From: Mycoplasma parvum str. Indiana
Lineage (GTDB): Bacteria > Bacillota_I > Bacilli_A > Mycoplasmatales > Mycoplasmoidaceae
DNA: 64,000 bases
Direction: 5' to 3'
Assembly (NCBI RefSeq): GCF_000477415.1
Contig: NC_022575.1
Location: 1 to 64,000, forward strand
Below, piece after piece: positions 3,188 through 8,228 of the stretch. Each line of letters begins with the position of its first letter. Positions within the stretch are counted from its first letter, which is position 1. Made by a program: the position numbers and the translations under genes. The notes below the pieces were generated by a model. It was given only the letters and a program-made list of their open reading frames with translations, did no database searches and was not told the origin of the DNA.

Positions 3188-4258
3188 ATGTCTTTTTATC
3201 CAGTTAAATGTAAAAATTTACCTATTCATGAAAAAGATTCTTTGAATACTAGACAAAAAGAGATTATGAGAATGATAGTAGAGATGTATATAAATGAGAA
3301 AGAAGCTATTAGTAGTTTAAATATCAAATCAAAAAAACTTTTTAAATGATCTTCAGCGACAATAAGAAATGAAATGGTAATTCTAGAAAATAAAGGTTTT
3401 TTAAAGAAAGAACATAAATCTTCTGGTAGAATTCCCACCAGAGAAGGCTATAAATTGTATATAGATTCTTTAATGGGAAAAATAAAAAGTGTAGATGGAG
3501 AAATTAAGACTAAATTAATTGAATTATTTTCTTATAGAAATGAATCAATTGATAATACTTTAAATAAAAGTGCTGAAATTATTTCTAACTTCCTAAATTT
3601 ACCAATAGTTTTATCTGGAAAAACTAATTTAGATTTAGAAATATTAAAGAAAATAGATTTAGTTGAAATTTCTACTCATGAATTTATTATTCTTGCTGTA
3701 ACTTCTTCTGGAGAAATTTATAAAGACAAAATTTGAGTAGAAAGATTTAAAGAAAAAGAAGACTTGAGTACATGTGTTTCACTACTGAATGAAAATTTAG
3801 TAGGATGTCCATTATCAAAAGTGAATATTGAAGTTAATAAATTATTACCTAGAATTAGAAAAAGTGTTCATCACTATGAATTTGTTTATGAAACAATAAT
3901 TGCTAAGATTTGTTCTAATATTGTAAATAAAGAGCAATCTTTTTTCAAAATTTATAACAAGAATGCTATTATTTCTCAACCAGAAGTTAAAAATAATCAA
4001 ATTAGTTTAGAAAGAGTTTTTAATGTTTTGGAAGATTATTCAACTTTTTCTCAATTAAATTTGAATTATTCTAGAACTGGAAAAACTCTAATTAATTTAG
4101 AAGGAGCTATGGATGGAATTTCTGTAGCTACTACTATTTTGGATAGTAAAGCTAAAACTAGAAGTATTTCTATTATAGGTCCTTTACGTATGGATTATTT
4201 ATTAATTAGGAGTTTATTTGAATTTATTAATGATAATTTAGTATTGAATACACAATAA
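3188..4258 (+). CDS. hrcA: Heat-inducible transcription repressor HrcA
   Basis: HrcA represses chaperone genes by binding CIRCE operators and is tuned by GroEL. The 356-residue product carries the winged-helix hallmark (SSATIRNEMVILENKGFL, about residues 57-74, then SSGRIPTREGYKLY) and the C-terminal GAMDGISVATTIL and ISIIGPLRMDY blocks typical of the family. ATG start 4 bp after the previous stop; two UGA-Trp codons (3349, 3734). No CIRCE element was seen in this window, so its targets (dnaK, clpB, lon in other mollicutes) would lie elsewhere. Confidence 0.92.
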
Positions 4259-6210: not shown

Positions 6211-6371
6211 GAATATTTCAAAATTTAATAAGATAGAAAGAAATTCTACCCTTATTAAATTATTTATTTAGAATAAAGTTTATTTTGTAAAAAATAAATA
6301 ATAAATTGGAGGAAAAAGAAAGAACTTTAAATGAATATTCTTGATGACAAGTTCATTGATATTATGGAAAA

Positions 6372-6542
6372 ATGAGAGCAATTACTTTTATTGAAGAATT
6401 TATTAAAAATTTTCAACGAATTCAATGAAGTGATAAAAAAAGAGTAATAAAAGAAACTTGTTTTGTTCTAATTATTACTGGAGTTTTAACAATTTTCTTT
6501 TATTTAGTTTTTTTATTTAAAAATTACATAATTGGTAATTAA
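6372..6542 (+). CDS. secE: Preprotein translocase subunit SecE
   Basis: A 56-residue single-span protein: amphipathic N-terminal helix (IEEFIKNFQRIQWSDKKRVIKET, in pieces matching the WPS.KE..K.T pattern) then one membrane helix VLIITGVLTIFFYLVFLF. SecE clamps SecY in the translocon. It directly precedes nusG, the standard order. ATG 6372 chosen; the frame stays open upstream to TTG 6306, giving a Trp-rich extension I think less likely. A short overlapping ORF (6331-6447) in another frame looks spurious. Confidence 0.82.
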
Positions 6543-6574
6543 TTCTTTAACATTTTTTAAAGTTTTTATTTAGA

Positions 6575-7594
6575 TTGGAAGACAAGTACTATGAAATTCT
6601 CAAAATAAAAAAAAGTGCTACCATAGAAGAAATTGAAGCTTCTTATGAAAAGCTTAGCGAAGAAATAGTTTTAAGTAAATTGACTAAAGCTGATAAGAAT
6701 ATTCATTTAGAGTCATTAAGGCAAGCTTATTCTTCTTTAATAGATCTAAAAATGGAAGAAGAGAGAGAAAATACTGGAATTCCCTTTCAGTGATATGTAG
6801 CTAGAAGTTATATAGCTAATGAAGATAGATTAATAGAGTCATTATGAGATAAATTGAGACAACATAATTTATCAGATTGTGTAAAAGAAATTATTTCTTT
6901 TAAAGAAACAGTAATAGTTGAAAGTGAAGAGATGACTCATGATTCTTCAGAATTACCTAAATTAGCTTTTAAAAATAGTCCTAGTTCTGTTTGAGTTAAG
7001 TTAAAGAATGGTAATTTCAAAAGAATTAAATTAACAGTTAAAAGACCTTATAAATGTTTCATTTTCTTTAATATGTTGAGTGATTTTGATTTATTTACCA
7101 AAATCAATAGTTGATTACTAGGTTTAACTTTTTTAGATTTCCCTAATTTAAAGGTAATTTCGGAAGAGGACATTAAGAAAATGAAAAGTAATGTCAAAGA
7201 AGAAATCCCTAATTTGATGGAATATATAGCTGAAAAAGAATATGAAGTTATTTCAGGTCCGGTAGCTGATCATACTAATGAAAGCTCATATATTTATACA
7301 AAAGATGATGAATATGATGATGAGGAAGGAATCCACTTAATGGACAAAAAAGAGGTATTTGTCAATGAAGTGCAGGAAGAAAAAGAAATATTTAGTGCTT
7401 CATTTGAAGGTAGTAGAGAAAATATCGTAATAGAAAAATTAAGAATAAATGATTTTGTATTTGTTTCCGAAATGGGAACAAAAGGAGTAGTAATAGCAAT
7501 AGATTTAAAAGAAAGAATTGTAACAGTTAATATAAATCTTTTTGGTAGAAATCAAACAATTCAATGTAAACCAGAACAATTAAAAGAGTTTTAA
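6575..7594 (+). CDS. nusG: Transcription factor NusG with J-domain-like N-terminal extension
   Basis: NusG binds RNA polymerase to suppress pausing. The core starts at FQWYVARSYIANEDRL (about residue 71) and ends with a KOW domain (GTKGVVIAIDLKERIVTVNI, then LFGRNQTIQCKPEQL). About residues 1-70 are extra: KYYEILKIKKSATIEEIEASY and later LRQAYSSLIDLK match the helix I/II and helix IV pattern of a DnaJ J-domain, but the HPD tripeptide is absent. The join is one open frame across UGA-Trp at 6791. 339 residues versus ~180-200 usual, also owing to an acidic insert (TKDDEYDDEEG) between NGN and KOW. TTG start. Confidence 0.88.
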
Positions 7595-7610: not shown

Positions 7611-8228
7611 ATGCTTTGTAGTTTATTATCTACAATAATTCAGAAAGTTAAAAGCTTTCTGAAACCTTGTGGTTGTTCAGAAAAAGTTTTTAAAGTAGTA
7701 AATATTTATTCTCCTATGGACGGAACTATAGTGTCTCAGAGAAGAATTCCTGATGAAGGTTTTTCTGAAGGATATATGGGAGAAGGTCTTGGATTAAAAC
7801 CTAAAGATAATGGGGAAATTCTTTCTCCATTAGGAGGTAAACTAGAGGTAGTATTTAGAACACAACATGCTTATATCATTAGAGAAAGCATTCATAATAT
7901 TGCAGTGATGTTACATTTAGGAATTAATACTGTTAATATTCCTGCTGAGGAAAAAGCTTTTGAAACTATTTGAGCACAAGGACAAGATATTAAAGAGAAA
8001 GAAGTATTGTGTCAAATGAATTTGGAAACAATTAGGAGAATTATGAAAGAAGAAGAGAAAAAAAGATCTTCAGGTGAAATAAGTGAGGAAGAAAAACCAA
8101 CTAGTGATATTTCAGCTTTATTAGTGCAAACAGAAAATATGGAAAATAAAAAAGTTGAAATTCTCAAAAAAGATGGAGATGATGTTGAAAAAGGAGAATT
8201 AATTATGAGAATAATTTCTTCTCAATAA
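7611..8228 (+). CDS. crr: PTS glucose-type enzyme IIA component
   Basis: A 205-residue soluble IIA domain that relays phosphate from HPr to a sugar-specific IIBC. Both active-site histidines of the family are visible: TQHAY and, ~15 residues on, MLHLGINTV. The early SPMDGTIV block is the usual N-terminal family motif. It starts 16 bp after nusG. No IIBC partner lies in the window. The C-terminal ~60 residues repeat the VEILKKDGDDVEKGELIM clasp typical of the fold, with a charged insert (IMKEEEKKRSSGEISEEEK). Confidence 0.9.

Follow-up and report, generated by a model that had tools for sequence, protein, structure and literature searches.

A J-domain-like N-terminal domain without HPD on NusG of Mycoplasma parvum and Mycoplasma suis

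The nusG locus of M. parvum

The window, by which we mean the whole stretch of DNA analysed here, comprises the first 64 kb of the strongly reduced genome of Mycoplasma parvum Indiana, whose length is 564,395 bases according to the available part of its published description (PMC3869333); the accessible text of a further source gives a G+C content of 27% for this genome and a length of 742,431 bases for that of M. suis Illinois (PMC4423628). Within the window, a single open reading frame encodes NusG preceded by a J-domain-like extension, a combination also carried by M. suis, the sister species of M. parvum and likewise a blood-borne mycoplasma of pigs. The frame contains four TGA codons read as tryptophan under genetic code 4, and the features of the locus are as follows, with coordinates counted within the window and residues within the M. 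parvum protein.

6306..6542, + strand: secE, directly 5' of nusG (TIGR00964, 28.2 bits; cut-off 27.55)
6575..7594, + strand: nusG with N-terminal J-like domain (339 aa; TTG start, TAA stop, genetic code 4)
6575..6577, + strand: TTG start codon of nusG, the first usable start after an in-frame stop at 6548
6575..6751, + strand: J-like (pseudo-J) domain, residues 1-59 (PF00226; AlphaFold2 pLDDT 87.6)
6578..6601, + strand: helix I, residues 2-9, EDKYYEIL (AlphaFold2 model)
6623..6670, + strand: helix II, residues 17-32 (AlphaFold2 model)
6668..6676, + strand: position of the HPD motif, residues 32-34, here V-L-S (alignment to J model)
6686..6772, + strand: helix III and its extension, residues 38-66 (AlphaFold2 models)
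6752..6754, + strand: in-frame ATG, residue 60 (residue 62 in M. suis), a possible old or second start
6785..7201, + strand: NGN domain, residues 71-209 (TIGR01956; VIA-align)
7283..7411, + strand: acidic, probably disordered linker, residues 237-279 (pLDDT under 50 in the full-length AlphaFold2 model)
7418..7591, + strand: KOW domain, residues 282-339 (VIA-align)
7611..8228, + strand: glucose PTS IIA-like gene, 3' of nusG (TIGR00830, 94 bits; cut-off 97.5)

The mycoplasma NusG model TIGR01956 (NusG_myco) covers residues 71-339 with 175.4 bits and an E-value of 1.5e-51, and its cut-off of 150 is exceeded in both species (173.2 bits in M. suis), which bears out the preliminary description in placing about 70 residues ahead of the canonical NusG. 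Plain Pfam scarcely detects NusG in haemoplasmas, and the identification of the protein therefore rests on TIGR01956 together with gene order, as the relatives also retain the secE-nusG arrangement, and fold. By VIA-align the NGN domain superimposes on E. coli NusG (6c6u_N) with a Z of 13.6 and an rmsd of 1.8 over 96 residues, and the KOW domain on the E. coli NusG C-terminal domain (2jvv) with a Z of 9.1 and an rmsd of 1.2 over 56 residues. With both folds predicted and a pN/pS of 0.28 between M. parvum and M. suis over residues 71-339, NusG itself is, as modelled, intact in M. parvum. The protein thus shares with other mycoplasma NusG proteins the NGN and KOW domains, the position after secE and a full-length TIGR01956 match that begins at residue 71, and differs from them in the 59-residue J-like domain ahead of that match. 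NGN and KOW are separated by a long, acidic linker whose length and sequence are highly variable among haemoplasmas. A separate observation concerns the heat-shock repressor gene hrcA, for which a match of 196.8 bits against a cut-off of 197.2 lies at 3188-4258 of the window, about 2.3 kb upstream of nusG.

A J-type helical hairpin ahead of NusG

When residues 1-71 of M. parvum are searched alone, the sole Pfam match is the DnaJ family PF00226 (25.0 bits, E 2e-5), with the DnaJ-like stretch spanning residues 4-57. This score, like that of the whole protein (21.2 bits), falls below the Pfam cut-off of 27.8 bits; the M. suis counterpart, whose extension opens with MSINTEYYKILNLSENASIAEIEESYEKLSDQVHAGKG, lies above it both as a whole protein (28.6 bits) and as a fragment (32.4 bits, E 1e-7), and automatic domain tables may for that reason already show the fusion. 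A J model built from 30 mollicute J-domains scores the M. parvum and M. suis segments at 25.3 and 24.9 bits, against a maximum of 15.4 bits among 10,000 composition-preserving shuffles (5,000 per species). Conversely, a profile made from the two J-like segments only finds matches at E ≤0.01 in 91 of the 95 family genomes, a count that includes M. parvum and M. suis, and these matches are mostly DnaJ-sized frames. The DnaJ-helix reading of the preliminary description thus stands as regards J-domain likeness and changes in one assignment: its second motif, LRQAYSSLIDLK, aligns to J-domain helix III (consensus EINEAYEVLSD) and not to helix IV.

Structure prediction, suggested earlier as a check, yields the same result. 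AlphaFold2, run on the isolated 71 residues as a single sequence with no alignment, returns a model with a pLDDT of 87.6 and a pTM of 0.71 (pLDDT 75.8-79.5 in the remaining four models), in which helices at residues 2-9, 17-32 and 38-67 form a J-type hairpin. A Foldseek search against the PDB gives J-domain, DnaJ, Hsp40 or CbpA entries in all of rows 1-17 and in 32 of the best 42 rows; these 42 rows have probabilities of at least 0.96, yet the best E-value is 0.016 and none is under 0.001. With VIA-align, the best row is the Tim16 chain 2guz_B (Z 9.0, rmsd 2.5, 61 residues aligned); J-domain entries come next, beginning at Z 8.8, so that the top rows are tied within about 1 Z, and an unrelated helical design reaches Z 6.8; in a small helical protein a Z of 9.0 may reflect just a common arrangement. 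The hairpin is retained in the full-length AlphaFold2 model, with residues 1-20 less confident (block means of 54 and 71), and helix III ends there four residues short of the first NGN strand, which starts at residue 71. This long helix suggests that the J-like part is joined closely, and perhaps rigidly, to the NGN domain in the predicted structure, in a full-length model whose pTM of 0.46 makes the placement of the domains unreliable. The J-like front domain on NusG of M. parvum and M. suis is real and unusual.

Loss of HPD and reversal of the Hsp70-contacting charge

In the alignment to the J model, the HPD motif is absent from both species and its place at residues 32-34 is taken by VLS in M. 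parvum and by HAG in M. suis, so that the replacement of the loop reported earlier holds in both proteins and the histidine persists in M. suis. Column by column, in a gapless alignment of both J-like segments to 30 true J-domains, the hydrophobic core is hydrophobic in 14 of its 18 columns in each species and identical between them in 16 of 18; identity is 3 of 13 in the HPD-loop columns and 11 of 26 in the further columns. Over the 15 residues that lead up to the HPD position, the net charge is -5 in M. parvum and -4 in M. suis, against +1 to +4 in all 30 true J-domains.

Taking H33 to be the histidine of the E. coli DnaJ HPD and counting back from it, we find Glu at the positions of R22 and K26 and Lys at that of R27, in both species; in the helix III columns that we take as E. 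coli K48 and K51, the probable K48 position holds Glu and that of K51 Arg, again in both. R22, K26, R27, K48 and K51 are named in the accessible portion of PMC8215388 as basic residues that position DnaJ on DnaK. At least two of these five Hsp70-contacting positions are thus acidic in both M. parvum and M. suis.

Compared with the DnaJ J-domain (PF00226), the extension therefore has the same scaffold of helices I, II and III with its retained core, and differs in lacking HPD and in the reversed charge at Hsp70-contact positions; compared with DnaJ as a whole, it has neither the G/F region nor the later parts. Judged from its residues, it looks built for folding and not for the usual docking to DnaK. 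A J fold that lacks HPD and a large part of the basic face would be expected to work through binding and not through activation of DnaK, and the earlier proposal of a fold-only adaptor that should not stimulate DnaK is, on these sequence features, the best reading. By profile, fold and alignment the NusG extension falls under the definition of pseudo-J or type IV J-proteins, a recognisable J-domain in which HPD is non-conservatively replaced (PMC13254874, available text). The loss of HPD is no absolute proof of inactivity, since one designed J-like sequence works without it, as reported in the available text of PMC13254874.

Distribution, origin and possible role

The extension is present in two of the seven genomes of the genus, M. 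parvum and M. suis. An extension in other haemoplasma nusG genes, raised as a question in the preliminary description, is thus found in M. suis, where the gene has an ATG start, and is not general. In the other five (M. ovis, two M. wenyonii, 'Ca. M. haemolamae' and 'Ca. M. haemominutum') the place of the J-like domain is taken by a short and mainly acidic stretch, and NusG of the haemofelis group begins about ten residues before the NusG core. FDEFEDDLI is an example of the acidic stretch in the five haemoplasmas (loci L003, L004, L006, L007 and L054).

Comparison by eye revealed no J-profile match overlapping nusG in the 95 family genomes beyond M. parvum and M. suis. The open frame that precedes NusG does not exceed 51 residues in 41 further family genomes, and where it reaches 20 residues or more, the J model scores it no higher than 1.6 bits; this survey comprised 62 loci, several per genome for some and two without a NusG frame, and the M. 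suis and M. parvum loci (L002, L052, L053) were read separately from it. Across 392 genomes of the phylum, only one of the M. parvum/M. suis pair (G000) spans both parts in one frame among the matches listed. A contig scan with the M. parvum protein as query found no relative, and one with an alignment query found six relatives, none with a J part and M. suis not among them.

A tree built from ten NusG cores supports the M. suis/M. parvum pair at 100/99, and because the other five genus members are without the domain, a single gain on the suis/parvum stem would be the simplest history. A domain ancestral to haemoplasmas and lost elsewhere is less simple, as five other clade members and the haemofelis group are without it. 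An origin as a recent copy of the resident dnaJ is unsupported, the M. suis protein having just 24% identity to M. parvum DnaJ, and no donor stands out in the search with the two-segment J profile, whose best other match (E 6.9e-8) is an ordinary DnaJ-sized frame. As a side observation, some genomes of genus g9 (G046:C21, G085:C8, G074:C27) have a separate J-domain gene about 1-2 kb from nusG, a possible clue to how fusions of this kind might originate; this arrangement is not seen in the haemoplasma genus.

Our literature search, with subscription journals outside its coverage, showed, among the titles listed, none on a fusion of NusG with a J-domain or DnaJ. The main text of the M. parvum genome paper mentions neither nusG nor DnaJ, and the accessible part of the M. 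suis genome paper (PMC3091866) mentions DnaJ, DnaK and GrpE and not nusG.

A J-domain and NusG are fused, the fusion is conserved in two species with similarity at the level of the predicted fold, HPD is lost and the charge is reversed; the reading that we consider probable is an ancestral J-NusG fusion that kept its fold but not HPD or a large part of the basic face, and now most likely serves as a pseudo-J adaptor and not as a co-chaperone. NusG would have acquired a J-domain at its N terminus in an ancestor shared by M. suis and M. parvum, the fold of this J-domain would have been retained while the Hsp70-activating HPD and much of the DnaK-docking basic face were lost, and the domain may now be a rigid protein-binding or stabilising module carried by NusG on elongating RNA polymerase. 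NusG travels on the elongating polymerase, and anything fused to it thus reaches that polymerase. We infer the adaptor role and any particular partner, and would rank the surface of RNA polymerase or of the ribosome first and DnaJ, through a pairing of the Pam16-Pam18 kind, second.

Thermotoga maritima NusG has likewise gained a lineage-specific accessory domain, DII, which is an insertion within the protein, whereas the M. parvum/M. suis addition is a different domain, N-terminal and J-like. According to the available part of PMC7819879, DII contributes to recruitment and makes the NusG:RNA polymerase complex more stable. In M. pneumoniae it is NusA, and not NusG, that appears to couple polymerase and ribosome (PMC8116511, accessible text), and by analogy NusG of the family may be freer for new partners.

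No transcription factor besides NusG is, to our knowledge, conserved universally, and the domains that a lineage adds to it show which machinery is tied there to RNA polymerase. In M. parvum and M. suis, both with strongly reduced genomes, an added chaperone-type fold has been retained without its chaperone-activating parts, a clear-cut natural example of a J fold put to a use besides Hsp70 activation.

Among the alternatives, the one that survives best, and is nonetheless unlikely, is a decaying passenger, a J-domain fused by accident and drifting since because it is harmless. HPD is gone, and drift is to be expected in a strongly reduced genome of 564,395 bp (PMC3869333, in part) with 27% G+C (PMC4423628, in part). 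Between M. parvum and M. suis the J-like part (57 codons, residues 3-59; 52.6% amino-acid identity) has a dN of 0.35, a dS of 1.10 and a pN/pS of 0.49 (bootstrap 0.32-0.77) and is, from these codon comparisons, constrained, though less than NusG; the looser constraint (0.49 against 0.28) is also compatible with a possible slow decay. Against a passenger, however, the 57 codons have acquired neither stop nor indel at a dS of about 1.1, pN/pS is clearly below 1, the hydrophobic core is identical at 16 of 18 columns, and the domain is retained in one of the smallest genomes of the group.

Somewhat less probable again is a docking of the Pam16 kind, in which the pseudo-J domain and the J-domain of DnaJ would form a pair that brings or restrains DnaJ/DnaK at the polymerase during transcription, close to nascent chains. 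The NusG extension shares with Pam16/Tim16 the J fold, the non-conservative replacement of HPD and the best VIA-align row, but is bacterial, is fused to a transcription factor and has an acidic helix II. At E ≤0.001 the DnaJ profile of the Pfam search finds exactly two matches each in M. parvum and M. suis, a DnaJ-sized frame and the NusG extension, which leaves DnaJ as the cell's sole other J-protein; genes for DnaJ, DnaK and GrpE are present in M. suis (PMC3091866, accessible part). Yet the Tim16 row at the top is tied with ordinary J-domains, the best structural rows lying within about 1 Z of them. The phmmer lists do not name Pam16 or Tim16. The more specific proposal of a bacterial Pam16 counterpart on RNA polymerase, with the pseudo-J domain of NusG placing or restraining DnaJ/DnaK at coupled transcription-translation, we hold to be more doubtful still; a link between DnaJ/DnaK and transcription has become directly testable with three small proteins.

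It is very unlikely that the extension is untranslated or only partly translated, with NusG starting at the ATG of codon 60. This codon, the first in-frame ATG of M. parvum nusG, is common to both species (codon 62 in M. suis), TTG is a weaker start codon, and the short leader before TTG 6575 holds no Shine-Dalgarno-like motif. These points argue weakly, because, of 45 mechanically taken, uncurated frames of at least 180 codons in the window, 18 have TTG and 5 have GTG as their first possible start, and a Shine-Dalgarno-like motif lies within 20 bases in just 4, so that the lack of one is hardly telling. Downstream of the in-frame stop at 6548, moreover, no ATG, GTG or TTG other than TTG 6575 occurs before the TTG of residue 36, the M. 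suis gene starts with an ATG two codons earlier, right after an in-frame TAG, and homology to J-domains runs in the same frame with a pN/pS below 1. Conservation thus points to translation from TTG 6575, next to which a second, shorter NusG form starting at codon 60 is possible.

Least credible of all is a working co-chaperone that brings DnaK to RNA polymerase even though HPD is missing, for which the histidine of the M. suis HAG, the two basic contacts left (Lys at the position of R27 and Arg at that taken as K51) and the functional HPD-less design cited above can be adduced, but which faces the loss of HPD in both species, charges of -5 and -4 against the +1 to +4 of all 30 true J-domains, and an HPD loop that is free to vary.
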